Shown: piece by piece, positions 4,936 through 19,473 of the stretch | How the letters are laid out: each line of letters starts with the position of its first letter | Numbering within the stretch: the stretch's first letter is position 1 | Assembly (NCBI GenBank): GCA_020072785.1 | Contig: JAIQGG010000005.1 | Span: forward strand, 62,001 to 126,000 | DNA length: 64,000 nucleotides | Origin: Terriglobia bacterium | GTDB taxonomy: Bacteria > Acidobacteriota > Terriglobia > Acidiferrales > UBA7541 | Direction of reading: 5' to 3' | Program-made: the position numbers and the translations under genes | The notes under the pieces: model-generated | What the model saw: only the letters and a program-made list of their open reading frames with translations | Told to the model about the DNA's origin: nothing | Databases searched by the model: none

Positions 4936-7152
4936 ATGCGGCGCCAGGGGACCCTCATTTTGTGCATCGCTTGTGCCCTGCTGGCGGCCGGTTGCCCCAA
5001 GGGCGGCGATGACTACAAGCTTGCCCGCAGAGCCGAGGCGTTGCAGGACTACGACACCGCTCTGGAGCATTACCAGAAGGCGCTCAAAGCCGATCCCTTC
5101 AACGCCGACTACAAGCTCAAGGCCACCCAGTTGCGTTTCGAGGCCAGCCAGTATCACGTGCGCCAGGGGCAGAAGCTGCGCGAGAAGGGCGACCTGCAGA
5201 TGGCTCTGGCCGAATTCCAGAAGGCCCTGGCCATGGACCCCTCCAGCCCGATCGCCGCGCAGGAAATAAAGGCCACGCTCGATCAAATCGCCGGGAAGGA
5301 GAAAGAGGCCGAGCCGAGCCCGGCTCCACCAGCACAGTCCACCGAGGGTCCTCTGGCCCAGGAACCGCCGCAGCTCATGGCCATCTCCCGCGCACCCATC
5401 AACTTGAAGATGGCTAACGACGCTAAGATCATCTACGAGACGATCGCCAAGTTGGCCGGACTGACCGTGGTATTCGACCCGGACTTCCCTGCCCGGCGGA
5501 TCACCACGGAACTGAACAACGTCACCCTGGAGCAGGCTCTGGACATTGTGTCGCTGCAGAGCAAGTCTTTCTGGAAGCCGGTAACGCAAAATATCATCTT
5601 CGTCATTCCGGATCAGCCGCAGAAACGCCGCGACTACGAAGAGCAACTGGTGCGCACCTTCTATCTTTCAAACACCGTGCAGCCGCAGGACCTCACCGAG
5701 ATTGTGACTGGCCTGCGGCAAATCCTCGATCTGAAACGCATTCAACAGTTGAATGCGCAGAACGCGATCATCGTCCGCGACACTCCGGACAAGCTGCTTC
5801 TCGCAGAGAAGCTGATCAATGATATTGACCGGGCCAAACCCGAGGTGGTCATTCAAGTGGAAGTGCTGCAGGCGCGGCTGGACCGTCTGCGGGACCTGGG
5901 GATTTTGCCCGGGCAGGGAGCGACCCTGGCATTTACGCCGGGGGGCGCGGGGTCCACTACCACCACCTCCATGGCCCTGAACCAGTTGAAGCACCTTTCC
6001 ACCGGCGACTATAGCGTGACCCTGCCGGGAGCCACCGCCACGGCCATCCTAACCGACAGCAGCACCAAAATCATTCAGAATCCGGAGATCCGCTCGGTGG
6101 ACGGCCAGCCTGCCAAGCTGCGCATCGGCGACCGCATTCCGGTGGCCACGGGAAGTTTCCAGGCGGGAGTGGGCATTGGGGCGGCAGGCGGCGCGGGCAT
6201 CGTCAACCCGCTGGTGAACACGCAATTTCAATACATCGATGTGGGCGTGAACGTGGACGTCACGCCGCGCGTGCACCCGAATCACGAAGTCAGCCTGAAG
6301 ATCCTGGTGGAGGTCTCCTCGGTCACCGGCACAAGCACCATCGGCGGGATCCAGCAGCCCATCATCAGCCAGCGCAAGATCGAGCACGATATCCGCCTCA
6401 AAGAAGGCGAAGTCAACATTCTCGGGGGGCTGATCGAGCGCGTGGACAGCAAGACGCTGAACGGCTGGCCGGGTTTCGCCAAGCTGCCGCTGCTGCACTA
6501 CCTCTTCTCCGACGAGAAAACCGACCATCAGGAGAATGAAGTCTTGATCGTGCTGATACCGCACATCGTGCGCCTGCCCCGATGGACGCAGGCAAATCTG
6601 GAGCCGCTGAGCTCCGGCTCGGAATCGAACATTCAGGTGCGCCGCGAAGCGAGCATCCAGGCGCCCACCCTGCCCTCGCCAGCGCCGACAGCAGTGCCGG
6701 TAGCGCCCGCGCCCGTTCCGCAGGCCGGCCCGCAATCAGCGCGCCTGCGCTTCGAGCCCGCAACGCTCACCCTGAAGGCGGGGGAGACCACGACGCTCGG
6801 CGTGGTCATTGACAATGTGCAGGACCTCTTCTCCATCCCCATGCTGCTGCAATACGACCCTGCGATCCTGCGCATCGAGGAGGTGCGCCACGGCGGCTTC
6901 CTCTCCGGGGGCACGCAGGAGATCGCCATCGTGGAGCGCGTGGACCAGGAGCACGGGCAGGCGATCATCTCCGCCACGCGCCAGCCGAACACCGCGGGAG
7001 TAAGCGGCTCGGGCACGCTGCTGGGCATCGTCGTGCGCGCGCTGGCCCCCGGATCCTCGAAGCTGGCCATCGTCCAGGTGAACGCCAAGGATTCCCAGCA
7101 GAAGACGCTGCCGCTGCTCAGCGGCGAGGCAACGATTCAGGTCGTTCCGTAA
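4936..7152 (+). CDS. Lipoprotein secretin with N-terminal TPRs and C-terminal cohesin domain
   Basis: Outer-membrane channel protein of the type II secretion / type IV pilus secretin family, 738 residues. A lipoprotein signal ends at 'LLAAGC' (Cys20). Residues about 28-115 form two or three TPR-like helix pairs ('DYDTALEHYQKALKADPF', 'GDLQMALAEFQKALAMDP'). An STN/N0-type and N1-type ring region follows (about 150-300), then the secretin barrel ('VDVTPRVHPNHEVSLKILVEV', 'GEVNILGGLIERV', 'LPLLHYLFSDEKTD'). After a Pro/Ala-rich linker, residues about 602-738 look like a cohesin-type domain ('ARLRFEPATLTLKAGETTTL', 'MLLQYDPAILRIEEV'). Two pseudopilin genes follow at 20 bases, so this is the export channel of a small pseudopilus system. 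No ATPase or inner-membrane platform gene is adjacent. The exact branch (GspD or PilQ) cannot be decided from sequence reading. Confidence 0.85.
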   Translation: MRRQGTLILCIACALLAAGCPKGGDDYKLARRAEALQDYDTALEHYQKALKADPFNADYKLKATQLRFEASQYHVRQGQKLREKGDLQMALAEFQKALAMDPSSPIAAQEIKATLDQIAGKEKEAEPSPAPPAQSTEGPLAQEPPQLMAISRAPINLKMANDAKIIYETIAKLAGLTVVFDPDFPARRITTELNNVTLEQALDIVSLQSKSFWKPVTQNIIFVIPDQPQKRRDYEEQLVRTFYLSNTVQPQDLTEIVTGLRQILDLKRIQQLNAQNAIIVRDTPDKLLLAEKLINDIDRAKPEVVIQVEVLQARLDRLRDLGILPGQGATLAFTPGGAGSTTTTSMALNQLKHLSTGDYSVTLPGATATAILTDSSTKIIQNPEIRSVDGQPAKLRIGDRIPVATGSFQAGVGIGAAGGAGIVNPLVNTQFQYIDVGVNVDVTPRVHPNHEVSLKILVEVSSVTGTSTIGGIQQPIISQRKIEHDIRLKEGEVNILGGLIERVDSKTLNGWPGFAKLPLLHYLFSDEKTDHQENEVLIVLIPHIVRLPRWTQANLEPLSSGSESNIQVRREASIQAPTLPSPAPTAVPVAPAPVPQAGPQSARLRFEPATLTLKAGETTTLGVVIDNVQDLFSIPMLLQYDPAILRIEEVRHGGFLSGGTQEIAIVERVDQEHGQAIISATRQPNTAGVSGSGTLLGIVVRALAPGSSKLAIVQVNAKDSQQKTLPLLSGEATIQVVP

Positions 7153-7171
7153 TCTCTCTATCTGTAGGCTT

Positions 7172-7657
7172 ATGCCGCATCCGCTGCGTACAATCCGACG
7201 AGGCGATCTCCAGGCGGGGATGACTCTGCTGGAACTGATTATCGCCTGCTCGATCCTGCTGATTCTCTCTTCTGCCGCGTTGCCCATCGCCCGCTACAGT
7301 ATCGTGCGCCAGAAGGAGACCGAACTGCACCGGAACCTGCGCGAGATTCGCAACGCCATCGACCGCTACAAGGACCTTGCCGACCGCAACCAGATCCGCG
7401 TCGAAGTGGGCAGCGAAGGCTATCCCCCGGACCTCGAGACGCTGGTGAACGGAGTGCAACTAGGCGCCGGCAGCGACCGCAAGATCCGCTTCCTGCGCCG
7501 AATCCCAGTGGATCCCATTACCGGGCGCGCCGAATGGGGCCTGCGCGCGGTGCAAGACGATCCGGATTCCACTTCCTGGGGAGGCAAAAACGTTTTCGAT
7601 GTCTATTCGAAATCGATGGGCACTGCCCTGGATGGGACGCGCTATGCGGAATGGTAA
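7172..7657 (+). CDS. Type II secretion pseudopilin (GspG-like)
   Basis: Pseudopilus subunit of 161 residues. After a basic leader the prepilin cleavage motif is 'QAG|MTLLELIIACS', with the conserved Glu at position +5 and a hydrophobic helix of about 20 residues that anchors the subunit in the inner membrane before assembly. The C-terminal half contains 'YPPDLETLVNG' and 'FLRRIPVDPITGRAEWGLRAV', the typical GspG region before the calcium-binding loop. It follows the secretin gene by 20 bases and overlaps the next pseudopilin gene. Methionine rather than phenylalanine at +1 is uncommon but tolerated by prepilin peptidases. No peptidase gene is present in the window. Confidence 0.85.
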   Translation: MPHPLRTIRRGDLQAGMTLLELIIACSILLILSSAALPIARYSIVRQKETELHRNLREIRNAIDRYKDLADRNQIRVEVGSEGYPPDLETLVNGVQLGAGSDRKIRFLRRIPVDPITGRAEWGLRAVQDDPDSTSWGGKNVFDVYSKSMGTALDGTRYAEW

Positions 7658-8102
7658 AACGGCGCAGAAGCTCGCGCGCTACTTTCCCGCGTCAACCAGA
7701 AAGCGCGGCACGACGCGCGCTTCCAGCGCCGGCTTCACGCTCCTGGAATTGATGATCGTTATAGGGATCATCGCCATCCTGGCGGGGATCGCCATAGGGA
7801 GCTACCGCCGCAGCGTGCAGCATGCTCAGGAAGCAGCCTTGAAATCCGATCTGCAGACCATCCGCCAAGCCATCGAACAATACACGATAGACAAGCAAGC
7901 CGCCCCGCAGTCGCTGGAAGACATTGTGGCCGCGAAATACCTGCGGGAGATTCCCACGGATCCGATCACCCACCAGAAAAACTGGCGCCTGGTATTCGAG
8001 GACGTCGTCCTCAGTCCCGACCAGGCCACTACTGGACTGACCGATGTGTTCTCCAGTTCCGACCAAGTCTCTTCCGACGGCACGCCGTACAGCACCTGGT
8101 AA
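7644..8102 (+). CDS. Second type II secretion pseudopilin (GspG-like)
   Basis: Pseudopilus subunit of about 152 residues. The cleavage motif is 'SSAG|FTLLELMIVIGIIAIL' with Phe at +1 and Glu at +5, followed by 'DLQTIRQAIEQYTIDKQAAP', 'LEDIVAAKYLREIPTDPIT' and a C-terminal 'VFSSSDQVSSDGTPYSTW' that parallels the end of the preceding pseudopilin. ATG 7644 is preferred because GGATGGGA precedes it at proper spacing; it overlaps the upstream gene by 14 bases, which implies coupled translation. Upstream in-frame ATGs at 7599 and 7632 are alternatives and would lengthen the leader. Having two GspG-like subunits suggests they form a mixed pseudopilus. Confidence 0.85.
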   Translation: MRNGKTAQKLARYFPASTRKRGTTRASSAGFTLLELMIVIGIIAILAGIAIGSYRRSVQHAQEAALKSDLQTIRQAIEQYTIDKQAAPQSLEDIVAAKYLREIPTDPITHQKNWRLVFEDVVLSPDQATTGLTDVFSSSDQVSSDGTPYSTW

Positions 8103-8233: not shown

Positions 8234-8310
<77 letters not shown>

Positions 8311-8787: not shown

Positions 8788-9216
8788 TTGAACGGATTGC
8801 CCATTACGGTTCGTTATGCGATCAAGATTTTAATCTTTCTTGCGCTCACGGCCGGACATTCGATTTCCGCAAGTGAATTGGCCCGGCTCACCCGCATTCC
8901 CCATTCCCAGGTGGCAAAGGTTCTGCATGCCCTGCGTTGGGGGGGACTGACCCGGTCGCGCCGCGGCTTGCACGGCGGCTACGAGCTCCGGATGAACCCG
9001 GAAGAGATTCGCGTGGAACAAGTTATGAAGCTCTTTCTCCCCGTGGAGGAGGAGCCCCAGCCGGATGCTGCGGATGATCCGTTCCTGCAGGTCTGGACGG
9101 AGACCGAAGCCCGCTCGCAGCAGGAATGGAAGCAGTTGACGATTGCGGAACTCAGCCGGCGCATGCCACCGCACGCGGCGGATTGGGACAAGCTGACCGC
9201 GGGCAGGCAATTGTGA
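8788..9216 (+). CDS. Rrf2-family transcriptional regulator without cysteines
   Basis: Winged-helix DNA-binding protein of 142 residues. The N-terminal part matches the Rrf2 pattern: 'RYAIKILIFLALTAG' helix, 'ISASELARLTRIPHSQVAKVLHALRWGGLTRSRRGLHGGYEL' helix-turn-helix and wing. IscR- and NsrR-type members bind an Fe-S cluster through three cysteines after the wing; this protein contains no cysteine at all, so it cannot use that mechanism. The C-terminal half is acidic ('VEEEPQPDAADDPF') and unlike the classic members. It starts with TTG, supported by AAGGA at 8777-8781. It is the first gene of the electron-transfer block and probably its regulator, by position. Confidence 0.8.
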   Translation: MNGLPITVRYAIKILIFLALTAGHSISASELARLTRIPHSQVAKVLHALRWGGLTRSRRGLHGGYELRMNPEEIRVEQVMKLFLPVEEEPQPDAADDPFLQVWTETEARSQQEWKQLTIAELSRRMPPHAADWDKLTAGRQL

Positions 9217-9279
9217 GGGCCAGACAGCAGCAAAGTTGCAGGCTTTATAGACCCCAAATTGAAAAAAGAGGAGGGCTAG

Positions 9280-10740
9280 ATGTTTGACCGAAAGAGCAAT
9301 TCGATTCTCGTGGTGACGAGCCTGCTGGCGGGGATGTTCGTCTACCTGCTGTTTGTGTCCACGACGCGGGTTTCGGCCATCCCGGCATTTGCACGCAAGT
9401 ACCAGACTTCTTGCACCACCTGCCACAACAACTACCCGGAGCTGAACGATTTCGGAGAGGCGTTCAAAAAGAACGGTTTCAAATTTCCCAAGGACGACGA
9501 GGTCTTCGTGAAAGAGCCGCCGGTGATGCTCGGCGCCAAGGCCCAGAAGGAAGCCTTCCCCGGCGCCGTCTATCCGGGCGAGATTCCTGGCTCGATCCCG
9601 ATCGGCTTCCGCTATTCGGGAGCGTTCGCTTTGAACAGCAAGCAGCCCCAGGCGGCCGGCTATGTGCCGCGCACGGATCTGTTCGCACCAGACACGCTTG
9701 CGTTGATCGCCGCGGGAAGTTTTGGGCCGAACATTTCGTTCTGGATTGACGACGATGTCTCTGCCGGCGGTTCGGGAGCGGAAGGCGGACTGGGCGACGG
9801 GTATCTGAAGTTCAACGACCTGGGCCACTATCTCAAGCTGCCCAAGGACTCCCTTAACGTGCGGTTCGGACAGTTTGAGCTCGATTTGCCTTTCAGCCAG
9901 GCGCGATCGGTCTATGCATCGGAGTACGACATCTACGGTCAGGCGAGTGTTGCCGGCGCCTGGGGCCCCACCGCTACCCTGTCTGGCGAGCCCACGACAA
10001 ATAACCCATTCGTGCTGGGTGCTTCGCAGCGGGGCATCGAGATCGGCGGCTATCCCAACGATGGGAATTTCTCCTGGTCCATCGCGGTGACGAACGGCAG
10101 CAATGACGGCTCCGCAGCGCGCAATTCCAAAGACGTCTACGTCCGCGTCTCCCAGAAATTCAATCTGGAACGCGACTCCGCCGCGCGCAAAGAAGTGCAG
10201 GCCGCCGGACCCACCGGTCCGCGGGACCACTCCTCGATTCGCGTCGGGGGGTTCTACTACTACGGCCGCAACGCACAGAACATCCCCGGCACGGACCAGA
10301 CATATTCCTTCCTGGGCACGATCCGCGAGCCCTTCTACCGGGTTGGCACGGACCTGCGTTTCAAGTATCGTCACATGGAACTGTTCGGCCTGCTGATGTA
10401 CGGCCACGACCAGAATCATCTCGTGGATACGGAAAGCGAAACGATCAGTGCGGGCCGTCCGGTAACTTTCAGCGGCGGTTTCGCGGGCTTGAACTACTGG
10501 ATCTATCCGTGGATGATTGCCACCTTGCGCTATGATGCGGTAAATTCTCCGGCGGACTTTCTGAATGGGGTATCCAAGAATGGGACCCGCAACCGCGTCA
10601 GCCCGGGCCTGCAGATGCTGGTCCGCAGCAACATCAAGCTGGTATTCGAGTACCAGCATCACTGGGAGCAGCCCATACCCGATTCCAACCTCTTCTTCCG
10701 GCCTAACACGTTCGTATCCGGAATTGACTACTCCTTCTAA
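9280..10740 (+). CDS. Cyc2-like monoheme cytochrome c fused to outer-membrane porin
   Basis: The 486-residue protein has a signal peptide or anchor (about 8-33), then a short cytochrome segment 'IPAFARKYQTSCTTCHNNYP' with one heme site (Cys45, Cys48, His49) followed by 'LNDFGEAFKKNGF'. The rest is a beta-barrel with alternating aromatic strands and a C-terminal Phe ('SGIDYSF'), as in outer-membrane porins. This order (PxFAR, CxxCH, LxxFGxxFK, then porin) is the architecture known from Cyc2 fused cytochrome-porins, which take electrons from Fe(II) outside the cell. Related barrel cytochromes of unknown substrate are also found in Acidobacteriota, so Fe(II) as donor is inference. AGGAGGG precedes the ATG. 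A cupredoxin gene follows 76 bases downstream. Confidence 0.75.
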   Translation: MFDRKSNSILVVTSLLAGMFVYLLFVSTTRVSAIPAFARKYQTSCTTCHNNYPELNDFGEAFKKNGFKFPKDDEVFVKEPPVMLGAKAQKEAFPGAVYPGEIPGSIPIGFRYSGAFALNSKQPQAAGYVPRTDLFAPDTLALIAAGSFGPNISFWIDDDVSAGGSGAEGGLGDGYLKFNDLGHYLKLPKDSLNVRFGQFELDLPFSQARSVYASEYDIYGQASVAGAWGPTATLSGEPTTNNPFVLGASQRGIEIGGYPNDGNFSWSIAVTNGSNDGSAARNSKDVYVRVSQKFNLERDSAARKEVQAAGPTGPRDHSSIRVGGFYYYGRNAQNIPGTDQTYSFLGTIREPFYRVGTDLRFKYRHMELFGLLMYGHDQNHLVDTESETISAGRPVTFSGGFAGLNYWIYPWMIATLRYDAVNSPADFLNGVSKNGTRNRVSPGLQMLVRSNIKLVFEYQHHWEQPIPDSNLFFRPNTFVSGIDYSF

Positions 10741-10754
10741 GGAACGGTCAGGGA

Positions 10755-10782
10755 AGGGCCGGGGCCTGGCGGCTCCGGCCCT
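10755..10782 (+). promoter_or_regulatory. GC-rich hairpin between porin and cupredoxin genes
   Basis: 8-bp perfect stem AGGGCCGG / CCGGCCCT with a 12-base loop, 14 bases after the porin stop. There is no T-run, so it may be an RNA-stabilising or attenuating hairpin within the operon rather than a terminator. Confidence 0.45.
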
Positions 10783-10816
10783 AACAAATTTCTGTACACT
10801 AAAAGGGAGAAAAACG

Positions 10817-11428
10817 ATGAAAAAGATGAACACTCTGGCGTTGCTTGTGACGGCACCCCTGGTCATGCTCGGGCTCGCAGGCGCGGTGCAGGCTGGGGAG
10901 ATCAAAGGCAAGGTGAGCGTGCAGGGTTTGAAATCAGCGGAGAACATCGCTGTTTACGTGGATGAGATCCCGGGCAAGACCTTCCCGGCCCCGGCGCAGC
11001 CTATTGTGATCGATCAGATCAAGATGTCCTTTATCCCGCATGTGGTGGTGGTCTTGAAGGGCACGACAGTGGATTTCCTGAACAGCGACCCGGTCGGGCA
11101 CAACGTGTATTGGCCCTCTGTGAGCGGCAATAAGAAGCTGGCGCACAATCTTGGAACGTGGCCGAAGGGACAGAAAAAGCCATTCCAATTCAATGATCTC
11201 GGTGTAGCATCGCTGCTTTGCAACGTGCACCCGGAGATGTCCGGCTACGTCGTGGTCGTGGCCACGCCCTATTTTGCGGTGACTGGGAAGGACGGCTCGT
11301 TCGTGATCAAGGACGTACCGGCCGGGACCTATACGCTGAAGAGCTGGAGCGAGGACGGCAAGCCCACGAGCCAGAGCGTCACCGTCGGCGCCGGCGCAGC
11401 AGAAGTGGCATTGACCGTAAAGAAGTAA
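10817..11428 (+). CDS. Exported cupredoxin-like type 1 copper protein
   Basis: Periplasmic protein of 203 residues with a signal peptide ending near 'AVQAG' (about residue 27). The cupredoxin core shows a full type 1 copper ligand set: His95 in 'DPVGHNVYW' and Cys135, His138, Met141 in 'LLCNVHPEM'. Residues about 150-203 form a small carboxypeptidase-regulatory-like beta-domain ('GKDGSFVIKDVPAGTYTLKSW'). The most likely role is a soluble electron carrier, comparable in position to rusticyanin-type carriers that receive electrons from Cyc2, but the partner is inferred. Start chosen at ATG 10817 because of GGGAG upstream and the signal peptide; a longer frame upstream overlaps the porin and is not credible. 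Confidence 0.85.
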   Translation: MKKMNTLALLVTAPLVMLGLAGAVQAGEIKGKVSVQGLKSAENIAVYVDEIPGKTFPAPAQPIVIDQIKMSFIPHVVVVLKGTTVDFLNSDPVGHNVYWPSVSGNKKLAHNLGTWPKGQKKPFQFNDLGVASLLCNVHPEMSGYVVVVATPYFAVTGKDGSFVIKDVPAGTYTLKSWSEDGKPTSQSVTVGAGAAEVALTVKK

Positions 11429-11458
11429 GGTTACTGCTACGCTTCCCGGAGGAATGCC

Positions 11459-13411
11459 ATTACGACTCGGACGAAACTGGTGGACCTGGACTGGCTGGAA
11501 TCGAATTTCCCTTGCATGCAGGCCTGTCCGGTCCACACGCAGGCGGGGCGGTATGTTTCCTTGATCGCGGAAGGCCGCTACGAGGAAGCCTACCGCTACG
11601 CCCGTTCTCCCAATCCTTTTGCGTCGGTTTGCGGGCGGGTGTGCGGCCACCCCTGCGAACCGGCCTGCCGGCGCGGAAAATTCGACGCGCCCATCTCCAT
11701 CCGCGCACTCAAGCGCTTTCTGACCGAGCGCCATGGGCCGGAATCGCGCAATCCAGTGGATGTGCTGTCCAATCAAAAGCAACTGGTGCAACGGGAAAAA
11801 GTGGCGATCATCGGTTCCGGACCGGCGGGCCTCTCGGCGGCGCACGATCTGGCGTTGCTGGGCTATGCGGTGACCGTTTTTGATGCGGCGGCGGTGCCCG
11901 GCGGCATGATGCACCTGGGCATTCCGGAATACCGCTTACCGCGCGACGTTCTGCAGGCGCAGATCCGCGAAATTCTGGAGCTCGGTCCGGAACTGAAGCT
12001 GAATATGCGCCTAGGGCGGGATTTTTCTCTCGCCGACCTGCGCCAGCAGGGCTATAAGGCCGTGCTGATGGCTTTCGGACTGCACCGCAGCCGGGATCTC
12101 AATCTGCCGGGCAACGATCTCGACGGGGTGGTCAAGGGCATCGATTTCCTGCTGAACGTAAACCTCGGCTACCGCTTCTCCATAGGCAAGCAGGTGGTGG
12201 TGATCGGCGGCGGCAACGTGGCCATTGACGTGGCGCGCTCGGCAATGCGCGAGCAGCAGCAGAAACTGGTGACTGACATAGCGGGTGTAGTGCTCCCCAA
12301 CGAGCTGACGTCAAGTGAAATGGACGTAGCCATGAAGGAGTTCATGGACGTCTCGCGCGCCGCGCTGCGCATGGGGGCGCGCGAAGTGCATCTGGTCTGC
12401 CTGGAATCACGGGCGGAGATGCCCGCATCGGAAGAAGAGATCGCGGAGGGCCTGGAAGAAGGCATCCGCATGCACCCTTCGCTGGGCCCGAAGCAGTTTG
12501 TGGGAAAGAAGGGCAAGCTGACCGGGCTGGAAGTGATTCGCTGCACATCGGTCTTCGACGAGCAGCACCGGTTCAGTCCGAAGTTCGCGGAAGGCACGGA
12601 GCACGTCATTCCCTGCGACACGGTAATTCTGGCGATCGGGCAGGCTTCCGACCTGTCCTTTCTGACGCCCGCGGACGGGATCGAGGCTACGCGCCAGGGA
12701 ACGCTGAAAATCAATCCGGAAACGCTGATGACCACGGCGCCGGGAATCTTCGCGGCAGGAGACATCGCCTTCGGGCCGCGGCTGATCATCAACGCCGTGG
12801 CCGACGGCAAGAAGGCGGCCGAGCAGATTGACAAGTACCTGCGCGGGGCGGAATGGAAGCCGAAGTCCAAGTACGTACGCGTGACGGTTCTTGATCACCA
12901 CGAGATGGCCGAGCACTACGACGAATATTCGCGCCTGCCGGTTCCCGTGATTCCATTGGAACGGCGCACGGGAGTGGCCGAAGTCGAGGTGGGATTCACG
13001 GAAGCGCAGGCCCGCGCCGAAGCCACGCGCTGCCTGAAGTGCTGGATCAACACGATCTTCGAAGGCACGGAAGCCAGCGGCAGCGAATGCATTCTCTGCG
13101 GCGGGTGCGTGGACGTCTGTCCGGAAAACTGCCTGCGGCTGGTGCCGCTGAGCCAGTTTGCCTTTACGGAGGAGACCAAGACGCGGCTGGCGGAGGAGGC
13201 GGACTCCCGGGGCATGGATCTGCAGCACGTCGCGGCGGAGGAACTGGGCGCGGCTGAGGGTTCGGTGATGGTCAAGGACGAATCGGTGTGCATTCGCTGC
13301 GGCCTCTGCGCGGAGCGCTGCCCGGTACACACCATCACCATGGAAGCTTTCGAAGTGGTGGATCACGATCCGGATCTGGTATCCATTGAGGAGATGGTGC
13401 TTCGGCCATGA
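11459..13411 (+). CDS. GltD-like FAD/NAD(P) oxidoreductase with 4Fe-4S clusters, possible ATT start
   Basis: Cytoplasmic flavoprotein of about 650 residues resembling the small subunit of glutamate synthase and related electron-transfer proteins. An N-terminal Cys-rich domain ('FPCMQACPVHT', 'CGRVCGHPCEPACRRG') binds 4Fe-4S clusters. Two Rossmann folds follow: 'VAIIGSGPAGLSAAHDL' for FAD and 'VVVIGGGNVAIDVARSA' for NAD(P), then the 'ILAIGQASDLSF' and 'GIFAAGDIAFGPRLII' motifs. The C-terminus carries two ferredoxin motifs ('CILCGGCVDVCPENC', 'CIRCGLCAERCPVHT'). No strong SD precedes the GTG at 11480; GGAGGA at 11448-11453 is placed 5 bases before an ATT that opens 'ITTRTKLVDLDW', so ATT at 11459 is proposed as the start. 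It overlaps the Rieske gene by 4 bases, which suggests it works with the Rieske/cytochrome b complex. Confidence 0.85.
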   Translation: MTTRTKLVDLDWLESNFPCMQACPVHTQAGRYVSLIAEGRYEEAYRYARSPNPFASVCGRVCGHPCEPACRRGKFDAPISIRALKRFLTERHGPESRNPVDVLSNQKQLVQREKVAIIGSGPAGLSAAHDLALLGYAVTVFDAAAVPGGMMHLGIPEYRLPRDVLQAQIREILELGPELKLNMRLGRDFSLADLRQQGYKAVLMAFGLHRSRDLNLPGNDLDGVVKGIDFLLNVNLGYRFSIGKQVVVIGGGNVAIDVARSAMREQQQKLVTDIAGVVLPNELTSSEMDVAMKEFMDVSRAALRMGAREVHLVCLESRAEMPASEEEIAEGLEEGIRMHPSLGPKQFVGKKGKLTGLEVIRCTSVFDEQHRFSPKFAEGTEHVIPCDTVILAIGQASDLSFLTPADGIEATRQGTLKINPETLMTTAPGIFAAGDIAFGPRLIINAVADGKKAAEQIDKYLRGAEWKPKSKYVRVTVLDHHEMAEHYDEYSRLPVPVIPLERRTGVAEVEVGFTEAQARAEATRCLKCWINTIFEGTEASGSECILCGGCVDVCPENCLRLVPLSQFAFTEETKTRLAEEADSRGMDLQHVAAEELGAAEGSVMVKDESVCIRCGLCAERCPVHTITMEAFEVVDHDPDLVSIEEMVLRP

Positions 13412-13917
13412 GCGACACAAAACATCCGTCTTCTGCGGGCGAAACTCCCGCAGAGCAGCGGGGCAACGGCATAACGCGGCGCGACTTCCTGAACGAAGTC
13501 ACGCTGGGCGCCCTGGGCATAGCGGGCCTGGGCTCCGTGGTGGTGACCTACCAATATTTTTCGCCCAATGTCCTGTTCGAGCCCTCGATGACATTCCGCG
13601 CCGGCAGCCCCGACCTGTATCCGGACAATTCCGTGAGCTTCCTCCAGGACCAGCAGGTCTACATTGTGCGCCTGCCGGAAGGCTTTTATGCGGTATCGGC
13701 GGTGTGCACGCACCTGGGCTGCATCACGCAGTGGAAGCCCGACCTAGGGATCATCGCCTGCCCCTGCCACGGCAGCAAATTCAAGCGGGACGGCACGAAG
13801 ATTGAAGGGCCGGCGCCGCGCCCCTTGCCGCATTTTGCCATCAGCCTGACCGCCGATGGGGACCTGCTGGTGGATAAGCTGCAAGTCGTGCAACCGAAGC
13901 AAGTTCTGAAAGTCTGA
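13408..13917 (+). CDS. Rieske [2Fe-2S] iron-sulfur subunit
   Basis: High-potential electron-transfer subunit of a cytochrome bc/b6f-type complex, 169 residues. An N-terminal Tat-like 'TRRDFLNEVTLGALGIAGLG' segment anchors and exports it. The cluster-binding motifs are 'CTHLGC' (Cys100, His102, Cys105) and 'CPCHGS' (Cys118, Cys120, His121), including the extra disulfide-forming cysteines. It overlaps the upstream flavoprotein gene by 4 bases (ATGA) and is followed at 9 bases by cytochrome b, so the genes are translated together. Confidence 0.95.
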   Translation: MSDTKHPSSAGETPAEQRGNGITRRDFLNEVTLGALGIAGLGSVVVTYQYFSPNVLFEPSMTFRAGSPDLYPDNSVSFLQDQQVYIVRLPEGFYAVSAVCTHLGCITQWKPDLGIIACPCHGSKFKRDGTKIEGPAPRPLPHFAISLTADGDLLVDKLQVVQPKQVLKV

Positions 13918-13926
13918 GGAATAACG

Positions 13927-14659
13927 ATGGCCACGACGTTGCAATCCTCTCTCGAGCGGCTCCGCGCGACGCGGGTCTGGAAGTCCATATTCCGGCGCGG
14001 TCCGGCGCTGACCAACCGCTCGCGCAGCCAAGCGGTCTTCGGCAACCTGTTCCTGCACTGGCTGCCGGTGAAGGTGCGCGAGAAGGCGCTGCGGGTGCGC
14101 GCTTCCTACTACCTGGGATCCATCTCGTTTCTGCTGTTCCTCGCCCTGACGGTCTCCGGTATTCTCCTGATGTTCTATTACCACCCGGCGGTGCCGCAGG
14201 CCTACCAGGACATGAAGGACCTGCGCTTTGTGGTTTCCAACGGGGTCTTCCTGCGCAACGTGCACCGGCTGGCGGCGCACCTGATGGTGCTGCTGGTCTT
14301 CTGGCATATGTTCCACGTCTTCTACCGCGGGGGGTACAAGCCGCCGCATGAGTTCAACTGGGTGGTGGGAGTGATTCTGCTGCTGGTGACGCTGTTCCTG
14401 AGCTACACGGGCTATCTGCTGCCGTGGGACCAACTGGCGTTCTGGGCGATCACGGTGGGCAGCAACATCATTTCGGCGATGCCATTCGTAGGCAGCAAGA
14501 TGCGGTTCACATTGCTGGGCGGACACGTGGTGGGAGAAAACGCGCTGCTGCGCTTCTACGTGCTGCACGTCGTGGTGCTGCCGCTGGTCGCGTTTTTCTT
14601 CATCGGGGTCCATTTCTGGCGGGTGCAAAAAGACGGCGGTCTAACGGTACGGTCCAAAA

Positions 14660-14676
<17 letters not shown>
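13927..14676 (+). CDS. Cytochrome b, N-terminal (b6-like) subunit
   Basis: Integral membrane protein of 249 residues with about four transmembrane helices. Two pairs of heme-ligating histidines are visible in '[20 protein letters not shown]' and in the late helix '[22 protein letters not shown]'. The quinol-oxidation region '[20 protein letters not shown]' lies between. Together with the next gene it forms a split cytochrome b like that of b6f and of many non-proteobacterial complexes. The gene overlaps the next one by 17 bases. Confidence 0.94.
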
Positions 14677-15359
<683 letters not shown>

Positions 15360-15370
<11 letters not shown>

Positions 15371-17507
15371 AGAGATGGGCAAAGTTTCGTACCGCATGCG
15401 GCTGGTCTTTGCCGCCAGCAGCCTGCTCTTTGTGGCGGTGCTGGCGGTTTCCCCGGTCAAAGACCTGCTCCGCGAATGGAAGCACTACAAGCGCGGGTAT
15501 TTGCAGTTCGCCAGGACGCGGCCGGACACCAAGCGCCTGACCGCGGATTACCACCCGGATCTCGACCAGATCTGGATCCCAGAGATGAACGTGGTGGACC
15601 GTTGCACCTCGTGCCATCAGGGAATCACGCAGCCGACGCTGGCGGATGCCTCCGTGCCGCAACCGTACCGGGCGCACCCGCCCATTCCACACCGCGTCCG
15701 GGATTGGGGCTGCACGCCCTGTCATCGCGGGCAGGGAGTGGCCACAGAAGTCGCCGAAGCGCATGAGACCACGCTGGCCTGGGAACAGCCGATCCTGCCG
15801 GGACGGTACTTGCAAGGGGCCTGCGGCTCGTGCCACCACGACGCCCGGCCGGAACTCCCGAAGCTGAATCGCGGAAGAGAGTTGCTGGAGAGCCACAACT
15901 GCGCGGGCTGCCACCGCCTGCAGGATATCGAGCGCCGAGAAATGCAGGGACCGGACCTGACCAGCGTGGGCACCAAGGTCAGCCGCGCATGGATCTACAA
16001 GTGGCTGAAAGAGCCGCGCACCATCGTGGACGATTCCGGAAACGTCAAGGTCAACGGCTACGAGACGGAAGAATCCCCGCGCATGCCGCAGTTCCGCCTG
16101 ACCGAGCAAGAGCTGCGGGATCTTTCCGCATACCTCAGTGCGCAGCGCAGCCAGCCCGTGGCGCCGTACAAGTTCAGCCCCGCGGTGGTGGCCAAGTGGG
16201 CGAAGCGGCCCGACGTGGTGGACCAGGGCGAGCTGCGCTTCCGGCAGATGTTCTGCAGCACCTGCCACTCGTTTGCGGTCACCCGGGCGGGAGAGACCAC
16301 ACTCATCGGCGGCAACATTGGCCCGGAGTTGACCAAAGTCGGCAGCAAGGTGAATCCCGACTGGCTGGTGGCCTGGCTGCGCAACCCGCAGGGCTACCTG
16401 GCGCACAGCAAGATGCCGCGGTATGAATGGAGCGACGAGGACCTCTTCACGGTCACCCGCTACATCCAGGCCAAGCTCAGCGATTCCGACTTGCTCAGTG
16501 ACGTGCCGCAACTCAGCGCGGCAACAACGGAAGAGATCGCGAGCGGCAAGAGGATCTTCTCCGAGAAGGGCTGCGCCAGCTGCCACGCCGTGGGAGGCAG
16601 CGGCACGCAGAAGGACTTCGGTCCGGATCTCTCGGCGCTGGGCAGCAAGAACGTTTCCCAGCTGGAGTTCGGCACGTCGAAGATACCGCGGAATCTGATC
16701 TCCTACATTCAGGCCAAGATCACCGACCCGCGTTCGGTGAATTCGGCCGCGCGCATGCCGCAATACAACTTCAATGCGGCCGACCTGGATGCCATCACCA
16801 CTGCCCTGCTGAGCATGACCGGCCCGCCGGCCACCAGCGCTCTGCAGAAGCTGACCATTCCGCGGGCCAATCCGCAGTTCCAGCCCGCCGGGGAATTCGC
16901 CCGGGTCTACGAACGCTATCGGTGCGCGGATTGCCACAAATTCAACGGCTACGGCGGGGACCTGGCTCCCGACCTCAGCTATGAAGGCAGCCGCGCGCAG
17001 CGGCAGTGGATCATCAGCTTCCTGAAGAATCCGCAGACGCTACGCCCGACGCTGACCTTCCGCATGCCGCAGTTCAACATGAGCGACCGCGAGGCCGCCA
17101 CCCTGGCCGATTATCTGAGCATGGTGATGCAGAGTCCAAACGTGAGGCAGGAGGCGGTGAGCGCGAAAGATCTGACGCCCGCACAGGCCGCACTGGGCAA
17201 GGAGCTCTACGAAGTGAAATACCAGTGCCAGTCCTGCCACACCATCGGATCCGGCGGGGGATACGTGGGGCCAAATCTGAACAACGCCGGCAACTGGCTG
17301 AAGCCGGAATGGATCGCGGCGTGGCTCAGCAACCCGCAGGCGCTGGCGCCGGGAACCATCGAGCCGCGCCGCAGCATGACGGACGGGGAGATCAAGGCGC
17401 TCACCGCGTACCTGATGACCCAGCGGCAGAGCGGCGGCAAGGCCGCGCAAAAGCACGCTGCGGTGCACGGCACCACGCCGGGCGGAAACGGGGTGGCCGG
17501 ACAATGA
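15360..17507 (+). CDS. Octaheme membrane-anchored cytochrome c
   Basis: Large 715-residue cytochrome with an N-terminal transmembrane segment ('LVFAASSLLFVAVLAVSPV') and the remainder outside the cytoplasmic membrane. Eight CxxCH sites are visible: CTSCH (82), CTPCH (118), CGSCH (155), CAGCH (181), CSTCH (299), CASCH (405), CADCH (522) and CQSCH (623). Heme motifs 1-4 cluster; motifs 5-8 each sit in a class I cytochrome c-like module with a distal Met in 'RMPQF/RMPQY/KMPRY'-type loops, so the protein looks like repeated modules. It probably takes the place of cytochrome f or c1 in the Rieske/b complex and wires it to periplasmic carriers. It overlaps cytochrome b by 11 bases and the next gene by 4. 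Confidence 0.92.
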
Positions 17508-18019
17508 GACACCGCAGCTTGCTGCTCCTCTTCGCGCTTCCGATCCTGCTCGGTGTTCAGGGCTGCCATAAGGCGGCCGCGCCGGCGAAGCCGGACCCGC
17601 TGCGCAACGCCTACGACGTGGAAGTGGACGCCAATGATCCCACGCACCTGATCCCGCTCAGCTACCAGCAGGCCCAGGGCAAGCGCGTCTTCTACGCGGA
17701 TTGCGTGTGGTGCCACGCCGATGCCACTCCGGCCGGGCCGTCCAACCGCAGCAACCTCACTCCCGTACCGCCGCTGATGAACGACGGCGCTACGCTGAAC
17801 GGGGTCACCGACGAGTTCATGCAGAGCATCATCACACTGGGTGGGAGCGCCATGGGCAAGTCTGCTATGATGCCTCCCTGGGGCCGGACGCTTTCCCCGG
17901 ACGAAGTCAAAGCGGTGATCGCCTATACCCGGGCCATTGCACAGCCGGCGTATCAGCCACCGGCGCGGGCGGCGTCACCCTACTCGAGGGAAACGGGACC
18001 CGGGCCCGCGACGAAATGA
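17504..18019 (+). CDS. Monoheme cytochrome c lipoprotein
   Basis: Exported class I-like cytochrome c of 171 residues. The signal peptide ends in a lipobox-like 'VQGC' (Cys21). One heme site, 'CVWCH' (Cys67-Cys70-His71), and a downstream 'MGKSAMMPPWGRTLSPDEV' region provides the axial Met. The C-terminus is Pro/Ala-rich. Start is ATG 17504, overlapping the octaheme stop by 4 bases; a longer frame upstream is only a shadow. It is a likely mobile or tethered acceptor of electrons from the octaheme subunit. Confidence 0.9.
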   Translation: MRHRSLLLLFALPILLGVQGCHKAAAPAKPDPLRNAYDVEVDANDPTHLIPLSYQQAQGKRVFYADCVWCHADATPAGPSNRSNLTPVPPLMNDGATLNGVTDEFMQSIITLGGSAMGKSAMMPPWGRTLSPDEVKAVIAYTRAIAQPAYQPPARAASPYSRETGPGPATK

Positions 18020-19398
18020 CACTGTTCATTCGAATTGCCCAGCGGAGCCGGATGGCCCGCAACGCCGTCTTGCTGGCGGTATTCTGCGCCCTGCAGACCT
18101 GCCCGGCCGCTGCACAGGTGCATCCGGCGGAGATTATCAACCCGCAGCTTAAGGCGCCCGAAGAGGCCTACTTTCAGCAACTGATCGCGCTCAACCGCAA
18201 GATTGCCGCGGCCAAATTCCCGTTCGAATTCAATCTCAGCCGCTACGTGGGCCTGGATCCCGATCAGCAGAAGGAAGCGGACACCCGCGGCCTGGAGTTC
18301 GTGAAATTCAAGGACCGCATCATCCTGAAGGTCACCGGCAACTACAATTCGGCCTACAACGCCGCCCTGCTGACGCAGAACCAACGCGTCACCCGCACCT
18401 TTCGGGAGGTTGTTCTTCCGATCCTGCGGATGGTCACCCAGGAACTGCCTGCGGACGTGGCCTGCGACGGCATCGGATTTGAGATTTCCCATCACGTGCG
18501 CCGCCGTACCAAGGCCTCTGATTACGAAGGCAAAGAGATTCTGGTCATTGTCTTCGACCGGGATGCGGCCTTTCGGCTGGCGGGTCTCACGGACGAAGAG
18601 CAACAACAGGATATCGTCAGCCACTCGATGGTGTACGTGAGCGGGAAGGAGTTCGGCCTCGCGCTGAACCAGGCCGATCCCCTCGATATTCAGGCGCTGA
18701 ACTCGTCTTTTTCCTCGGTCGCGGGTTCCGCAACTTCGCCGGACGCTTCGCGCAACCTTCCCGCCTACCACGCCCCGGCGAGCGCCGCGGACAAGTTTTC
18801 CGTGACTCCCGCCACGCCCGCCGCCGCGACGCCAGAGGGAGAACCCGCCACGCCGGTCGCGCCGGGCAAGAGCGCTCCCGCGGTGGCGGAGAAGAGTGAC
18901 GCATTGCTGGCCCCCGGCGGCACCGCGGCGCAGAGCGACGTAGACCGCCTGCAAACCAAGTATCAGACGCAACTGGACAGTTTTGCCAAAGAGGGCGTGA
19001 GCAAACTGCACTTTGTCTCCTACGCGCCGCCCTCGTTCGCGCTCTTCCGCAAGCGCATCGTTCTCCAGATGACGCTGCGCAATCCCAAACCCTTCGACCC
19101 GGGCACGACCTCCATCTACAAACGTGCGGCGCGCAGTTTCGACCTCTTCCTGGCTCCGCAGCTGAAAGCCATGGTGGAAAAGCTAGCCGCGGATCTGGAG
19201 TGCGATGGGCTGGACATCACCGTGCTGAACCAACTGGGGCCGAAAAGTTCTTCCTCGGAAGCCCTGGAGTTCGTCCTCCCGCTCCCCGCCCTGCGCCAGT
19301 TCGTGGATGCCGAGATCACCAACCAGGAACTGATCAACCGCAGCATCGTTTTGGTAAACGGTGTGCGCATCGCCATTAACCTGCAACAGGTGGAATGA
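18016..19398 (+). CDS. Exported protein of unknown function with two homologous halves
   Basis: A 460-residue protein not assigned to a known family. A signal peptide is likely (cleavage after 'CPAAAQ'). Two regions, about 95-220 and 340-460, repeat the same pattern: 'F-x-x-RI-x-L', a helical 'R-x-F/S-F...LP/AP-x-L-x-x-MV-x-x-L-x-AD', 'CDG', a hydrophobic strand, and 'S-x-V-x-V-x-G...LALN/IAINLQQ'. A Pro/Ala-rich linker of about 60 residues separates them. There are no heme motifs; each half keeps a Cys in 'ACDG/ECDG'. It overlaps the monoheme cytochrome gene by 4 bases and closes the respiratory operon, so a role in assembly or periplasmic interaction of that complex is plausible but not shown. 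Confidence 0.85.
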   Translation: MTLFIRIAQRSRMARNAVLLAVFCALQTCPAAAQVHPAEIINPQLKAPEEAYFQQLIALNRKIAAAKFPFEFNLSRYVGLDPDQQKEADTRGLEFVKFKDRIILKVTGNYNSAYNAALLTQNQRVTRTFREVVLPILRMVTQELPADVACDGIGFEISHHVRRRTKASDYEGKEILVIVFDRDAAFRLAGLTDEEQQQDIVSHSMVYVSGKEFGLALNQADPLDIQALNSSFSSVAGSATSPDASRNLPAYHAPASAADKFSVTPATPAAATPEGEPATPVAPGKSAPAVAEKSDALLAPGGTAAQSDVDRLQTKYQTQLDSFAKEGVSKLHFVSYAPPSFALFRKRIVLQMTLRNPKPFDPGTTSIYKRAARSFDLFLAPQLKAMVEKLAADLECDGLDITVLNQLGPKSSSSEALEFVLPLPALRQFVDAEITNQELINRSIVLVNGVRIAINLQQVE

Positions 19399-19451: not shown

Positions 19452-19473
19452 GACCGGGCGCAAGCGTCCGGTC
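19452..19473. terminator. Hairpin between the respiratory operon and pobA
   Basis: GACCGGGCG / CGTCCGGTC forms a 9-bp stem with one G-T pair and a 4-base loop, followed by CTTCTGT on the plus strand. It lies between converging operons and could terminate both, although the T-run is poor. Confidence 0.4.

Follow-up and report, generated by a model that had tools for sequence, protein, structure and literature searches.

Cyc2 fused cytochrome-porins are described from Acidithiobacillus, Mariprofundus and Leptospirillum (Cyt572), and the characterised members, one from each of three clusters, oxidise Fe(II) (PMC8406198, PMC7029218). The Leptospirillum protein Cyc572 clusters with homologues from Acidobacteria and Nitrospira (PMC10654088). 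A second relevant group of systems is known from Kuenenia, an anammox bacterium, whose Rieske/cytochrome b (Rieske/b) complexes (Kustd1480-1485 and Kuste4569-4574) unite an oxidoreductase for nicotinamide adenine dinucleotide (phosphate), NAD(P), with a b6-like protein, a subunit-IV-like protein and hexaheme or octaheme cytochromes. Their proposed mechanism divides quinol electrons by bifurcation between NAD(P)+ and an acceptor of high potential (PMC12954380). Here, we describe a nine-gene operon in which a Cyc2 protein and a complex of this kind are encoded together. It lies in a 64,000-nucleotide stretch of the genome of a Terriglobia bacterium (Acidobacteriota; GCA_020072785.1, contig JAIQGG010000005.1, positions 62,001 to 126,000), which is referred to below as the window. 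On balance, we think it somewhat probable that the operon encodes a conduit for electrons in the outer membrane that connects with a Rieske/cytochrome b complex of the inner membrane, itself coupled to NAD(P). Its genes are as follows (window coordinates).

9280-19398, plus strand: the nine-gene operon, tightly packed on a single strand
9280-10740, plus strand: Cyc2L, a fusion of an outer-membrane monoheme cytochrome and a 16-strand porin, 486 amino acids (motif, AlphaFold2 model, PDB match)
10817-11428, plus strand: exported cupredoxin with a type-1 copper site (Pfam Copper-bind, 6.3e-6)
11480-13411, plus strand: flavin adenine dinucleotide (FAD)/Fe-S NAD(P) oxidoreductase, GltD/NfnL-like (PRK12771), with N- and C-terminal 4Fe-4S motifs
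13408-13917, plus strand: Rieske [2Fe-2S] subunit with one transmembrane helix (Pfam Rieske; PDB matches)
13927-14676, plus strand: b6-like cytochrome b (family matches, alignment, conservation)
14660-15370, plus strand: subunit-IV-like membrane protein (Pfam Cytochrom_B_C; ExtQ-like below cut-off; alignment)
15360-17507, plus strand: membrane-anchored octaheme cytochrome c (eight CxxCH motifs)
17504-18019, plus strand: small monoheme cytochrome c with an N-terminal hydrophobic signal or anchor
18016-19398, plus strand: DUFx, a secreted protein of two alpha/beta repeats without a cofactor motif

An earlier sequence-only reading had placed a Cyc2-pattern porin, a cupredoxin, a FAD/Fe-S NAD(P) oxidoreductase, a Rieske protein, a split cytochrome b and octaheme and monoheme cytochromes c on one plus-strand block. 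All of these parts are present and their motifs are conserved, with the correction that the last gene (18016-19398) does not encode a cytochrome. The same reading's view that a single operon combines a Cyc2-type electron-transfer module, a cupredoxin and a Rieske/b complex is well supported. From Cyc2L to DUFx the gaps are 76, 51, -4, 9, -17, -11, -4 and -4 bases, so that none exceeds 76 bases and five are overlaps.

When named genome contigs were scanned, 80 loci were obtained; all belong to Acidobacteriota and, judging by record titles, many come from soils, fens, bogs and palsas. Gene order was counted in the 57 loci with at least 8.6 kb of downstream sequence, 52 of which contain all nine genes. 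Because the order is identical in 52/52 complete loci, the arrangement is not a matter of chance. The Rieske/b complex is present in 54 of the 57, the cupredoxin gene directly follows Cyc2L in 73/74 loci, and cofactor motifs are kept across 55-77 relatives. Variant arrangements were also seen. At L057 8747-11717, COX2-like, ferritin-like and NapH-like frames (identified by inspection) between cupredoxin and DUFx replace the Rieske/b complex, and two compact loci (L080 12270-13178 and L088 12278-13219) have the order Cyc2L-cupredoxin-diheme c-DUFx, with no Rieske/b complex within the stretch examined.

Co-inheritance was assessed in a sample of 200 genomes of the class, in which Cyc2L has 33 carriers, DUFx 33 and the operon-type cytochrome b 37. 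Cyc2L shares 32 genomes with DUFx (Fisher p 9e-35) and 32 with the operon-type cytochrome b (p 1e-30); the genomes are kin, so these p-values are only indicative and overstate the independent evidence. RuBisCO was rejected as a correlate of Cyc2L, being found in 3/33 Cyc2L carriers and 15/167 other genomes.

To assign Cyc2L to a family, we used the sequence AXPXFAR[Q/K][T/Y] just before CXXCH, which Keffer et al. described as Cyc2-specific (PMC8406198), a PXL after it, one heme motif and a length of at least 365 amino acids. The Cyc2L sequence, AIPAFARKYQTSCTTCHNNYPEL, holds the Cyc2-unique motif, the heme site and PxL: its string AIPAFARKY-QTS-CTTCH-NNY-PEL agrees with the published motif (AIPAFARKY, followed by PEL), there is a single CxxCH, and the protein has 486 amino acids. 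Among its relatives, the CxxCH is invariant (77/77), serine occurs within FAR in 58 of 77 (FSR), and the K/Q position varies in some. An AlphaFold2 model built on the alignment of these 77 sequences (predicted template modelling score 0.72) has 16 strands; confidence is mostly above 80 in the later barrel strands by the predicted local distance difference test (pLDDT), and low in the heme domain. In a PDB fold ranking of the model, OprP (2o4v) came first (E 1.4e-11) and OprO (4rjw) eighth, both of which are templates reported for Cyc2 (PMC8406198), and the porin is thus predicted to be a 16-strand barrel of the OprO/OprP type. On its motif, heme site, length and modelled barrel, Cyc2L is assigned to the Cyc2 family. 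It resembles the named Cyc2 proteins of Acidithiobacillus, Mariprofundus and Leptospirillum in its signal, AxPxFAR[KQ][YT], single CxxCH, PxL and 16-strand OprP-like barrel, but forms a distinct Acidobacteriota clade, mostly with FSR for FAR, and stands in a fixed operon with a cupredoxin, an NAD(P)-linked Rieske/b complex and DUFx.

The remaining redox proteins are similarly conserved. The copper ligands of the cupredoxin (His95, Cys135, His138 and Met141) are invariant in 68/68 sequences, the NAD(P) oxidoreductase has 19 conserved cysteines among 60 sequences, and both the eight CxxCH motifs of the octaheme cytochrome (55/55) and the single one of the monoheme cytochrome (56/56) are invariant. 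In one genome (G009), the genes for the monoheme and octaheme cytochromes occur a second time, 5' of the operon (L035 16312-17477).

Comparison of the complex with its Kuenenia counterparts revealed a shared architecture. In both, an NAD(P) oxidoreductase that carries FAD and multiple Fe-S clusters is encoded alongside the Rieske protein and cytochrome b, the b6-like and subunit-IV-like proteins are separate, and a multiheme cytochrome c replaces cytochrome f. The two best PDB matches of the Rieske subunit, 9rk4 (Kuste4569, 1.7e-25) and 9rk3 (Kustd1480, 1.9e-22), are both from Kuenenia, and its potential-raising serine, Ser123, is shared with them. Across relatives, the Rieske ligands and Ser123 are conserved in 58/58 sequences, and the heme-b ligands of cytochrome b (His113, 127, 214 and 229) in 57-58 of 58. 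An additional histidine, His44, is invariant (58/58) and may be a ligand of an extra interface b heme, for which the Kuenenia type has His43/His62. The subunit-IV-like protein carries APWY in place of PEWY in the alignment and has four clear hydropathy segments, compared with the five-helix subunit IV of the Kuenenia type. Unlike the Kuenenia complexes, the window complex has no HAO-like subunit, being paired with Cyc2 and a cupredoxin instead, and its cytochrome b lacks the heme-cN cysteine of the b6 type, a position set against b6 by eye and occupied by tyrosine in 55 and phenylalanine in 3 of 58 sequences (Tyr62 in the window). Because the architecture and the Rieske serine are shared but the heme-cN cysteine is missing in all 58, the complex is, from its sequence, a relative of the Kuenenia complexes that probably functions similarly, rather than a full member of that group.

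The Ext selenite/tellurite reduction operon has a homologous cytochrome b, subunit IV and c-type cytochrome. All matches lie below curated NCBIfam cut-offs (247.7<290, 48.3<150 and 71.4<100 for ExtP, ExtQ and ExtS, respectively), and identity with Ext was rejected. The Ext operon is not known to include a Cyc2.

A different line of evidence comes from five of the 200 genomes, in which the operon-type complex occurs without Cyc2L. In three of them (G050, G106 and G172), the operon ends at its 3' side with another Cyc2, which has the FARQT or YARQT motif of the proteobacterial type, and in a fourth (G192) a third Cyc2 lineage is placed between the cupredoxin and NAD(P) oxidoreductase genes. In two deeper relatives (G084 and G133), the complex takes a hexaheme form, and a fourth lineage lies upstream of it together with a monoheme cytochrome c. 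Matches of the FARQT-type protein to plasmid-borne homologues from Acidithiobacillus ferrooxidans, Acidiphilium and Burkholderiaceae cover 86-98% of its length with 29-39% identity. In trees that include just four named proteobacterial homologues, it groups with these and far from Cyc2L; the branches are long, and the grouping serves as a guide. The strongest argument for a functional association is this replacement of one Cyc2 by another beside the same complex, and on these grounds the association is probably not mere inherited linkage.

This replacement also bears on the idea that the complex is simply the plain quinol:cupredoxin oxidoreductase of the lineage for aerobic respiration, with Cyc2L as a porin or metal sensor kept for, e.g., Fe(II) or copper handling and without net extracellular electron transfer. 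Cupredoxins are general carriers, and one compact locus (L133) adjoins Alternative Complex III-like and oxidase genes (identified by inspection), which would fit such a role. We regard it as quite improbable, because several Cyc2 lineages accompany the same complex, all 77 Cyc2L sequences keep the heme motif, and the genome holds another Rieske/b complex. Sequence and genome comparison establish which parts the operon has, that these carry predicted cofactor sites and are inherited together, and that the complex accompanies more than one Cyc2 lineage; they strongly support coupling of the Cyc2 conduit to the Rieske/b complex.

In the mechanism that we propose, dissolved Fe(II)/Fe(III), or a different small redox partner, would exchange electrons with the Cyc2L heme through the porin, the cupredoxin would ferry them between this heme and the monoheme and octaheme cytochromes by way of the periplasm, and these cytochromes would exchange them with the Rieske centre. 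On the other side, the b hemes would provide a link to the Fe-S clusters, FAD and NAD(P), possibly via an extra heme at His44. We infer both the electron donor and its coupling to the complex. The same wiring could serve an outside partner other than iron, such as reduced humics, phenolics, Mn(II) or another small reductant. The peat and soil habitats of the carriers are compatible with this, and the authors of the Cyc2 study allow further functions (PMC8406198), but the tested Cyc2 proteins are Fe(II) oxidases and no sequence feature here suggests another donor, which makes a non-iron partner highly unlikely.

The genome contains a second Cyc2 operon (G000:C2:443128-450557; L033 9129-16558) with the order cyc2-diheme c-cupredoxin-coxB-coxA-coxC-coxC-coxD. 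This corresponds to the published order of the Acidithiobacillus rus operon (PMC10654088), from which it differs by an additional coxC-like gene; rus and cta genes were not seen in the locus, and a permease-like gene lies less than 0.5 kb after coxD. Its diheme cytochrome c weakly matches Leptospirillum cytochrome 579 (1.5e-12, below the cut-off), and oxidase genes adjoin this cyc2 module in twelve congeners. The Acidithiobacillus rus and pet operons (PMC10654088) thus have Cyc2, a cupredoxin and a Rieske/b branch in common with this genome, and its second module repeats cyc2-cyc1-cup-coxBACD; here, however, the Rieske/b branch has a Cyc2 of its own, and an NAD(P) module replaces bc1 and complex I. 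By analogy, known Cyc2 function and this rus-like sister module favour inward flow, and we infer that electrons probably travel in this direction as a rule, with the complex as companion of the rus-like Cyc2-cytochrome oxidase module.

The direction may also follow the potential outside the cell. Using values of -70 mV for menaquinone and -320 mV for NAD(P) (PMC12954380), we obtained a balance point between bifurcation and confurcation of +180 mV, a figure that is calculated rather than measured and leaves proton motive force aside. With an outside couple of less than about +180 mV, uptake would be favoured, the electrons of the couple and of NAD(P)H being confurcated into quinol; with a couple of higher potential, output with NAD(P)H formation would be favoured. 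Either direction is feasible, because the potential measured for Mariprofundus Cyc2, +208 mV (PMC8406198), is close to the balance point. It is conceivable, if rather doubtful, that the operon forms a reversible wire between the cell exterior and NAD(P), in which bifurcation or confurcation by the complex would connect NAD(P)H and the menaquinone pool with iron outside the cell. The external potential would set the direction, and heterotrophs among these abundant soil bacteria would balance their redox state against iron without autotrophy. The sequence-only reading had electrons pass uphill through a bc complex to NAD. That view is right only in part: the complex is not an ordinary bc1 and resembles the NAD(P)-linked complexes of Kuenenia, whose proposed bifurcation, run exactly backwards, would consume NAD(P)H.

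Electron output would be the outcome of a stricter Kuenenia-style scheme. Menaquinol would be bifurcated, with one electron passing to NAD(P)+ and the other via the octaheme cytochrome, cupredoxin and Cyc2L to extracellular Fe(III), and Cyc2L would take the place of the HAO-like protein of the Kuste4569-4574 operon. The resemblance in architecture and Rieske protein and the origin of carriers from fen, bog and soil are in keeping with this scheme, as are two features of the genome considered below, an MtrAB-like pair and the lack of RuBisCO. We nevertheless consider it unlikely, as characterised Cyc2 proteins are Fe(II) oxidisers, the cyc2 of the sister module feeds a cytochrome oxidase, and the predicted substrate of monoheme Cyc2 proteins is dissolved Fe(II) (PMC8406198).

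Several observations weigh against our preferred interpretation of an NAD(P)-coupled conduit that usually works inward. The strict Kuenenia analogy, in which quinol electrons go to a high-potential acceptor and NAD(P)+, would favour output. A locus in the same genome (G000:C1:284000-298000; L177) encodes a decaheme MtrA-like protein (above the NCBIfam cut-off), an MtrB/PioB porin and a second Rieske/cytochrome b complex; from its gene content it is a probable multiheme extracellular electron transfer locus, and extracellular electron output is therefore possible in this organism. RuBisCO was not found in the genome searched, in line with the apparent heterotrophy proposed in the sequence-only reading, and because RuBisCO is also unassociated with Cyc2L, there is no clear sign of the usual demand for NAD(P)H made by uphill transfer. 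Furthermore, a few Cyc2L loci lack the complex (L057 and L133 keep Cyc2L, cupredoxin and DUFx), and one genome (G213) has the complex with no Cyc2 nearby. The L177 locus also encodes cytochromes with 9, 5 and 19 CxxCH motifs.

The operon is real and conserved, and it is apparently undescribed: no account of it in Acidobacteriota was found in the open literature searched, subscription papers and preprints being outside that search. The earlier proposal of an undescribed module for electron input or output is upheld to this extent, with the qualification that known parts occur here in a new, fixed combination and that the direction of flow is assigned by analogy. Few bacteria of soil and peat are as abundant, or as rarely cultivated, as the Acidobacteriota, and the gene content suggests that many of their uncultivated, seemingly heterotrophic soil members exchange electrons with extracellular iron via this operon. 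If it works as an Fe(II)/Fe(III)-linked conduit, soil iron redox would include many lineages now seen as plain degraders of organic matter. The operon would also provide a second, non-anammox setting for the proposed NAD(P)-bifurcating Rieske/b mechanism.

DUFx, which is nearly always inherited with Cyc2L, is an uncharacterised protein that can now be named as a candidate partner of a Cyc2. It has no Pfam match and no PDB sequence match. Fold searches with its structure model (pLDDT 83.6) returned no convincing match (best Foldseek E 0.01, best VIA-align Z 5.9); these weak matches carry no functional information, and a missing match is not proof of a new fold.

Two of the gene starts deserve comment. 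The cupredoxin starts at 10817 and not at the in-frame upstream ATG at 10565, which corrects the gene call, and the NAD(P) oxidoreductase may start at an ATT at 11459 instead of the GTG at 11480. Two further features flank the operon.

8788-9216, plus strand: cysteine-free Rrf2-family regulator, an upstream gene outside the conserved core (Pfam Rrf2, 9.2e-19)
19452-19473, plus strand: terminator-like hairpin with a 9-bp stem, 3' of DUFx (consensus scan only)

The Rrf2 gene is not counted as core, because a high-identity copy precedes the operon only in the two closest relatives and the protein has no cysteines. The number of terminator-like sites elsewhere in the region is, in this consensus scan, not far above chance. 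Just upstream of the operon, the window contains a secretin and two pseudopilin-like genes (4936-8102), with a tRNA-Met (8234-8310) between them and the operon. Downstream, a mostly minus-strand stretch (19516-55030) carries catabolic genes, including those for a FAD monooxygenase, a thiolase, a URO-D-like protein, hydantoinase A/B pairs, MTHFR, a cobalamin-independent methionine synthase-like protein and an aldehyde dehydrogenase, which possibly serve aromatic or one-carbon metabolism.
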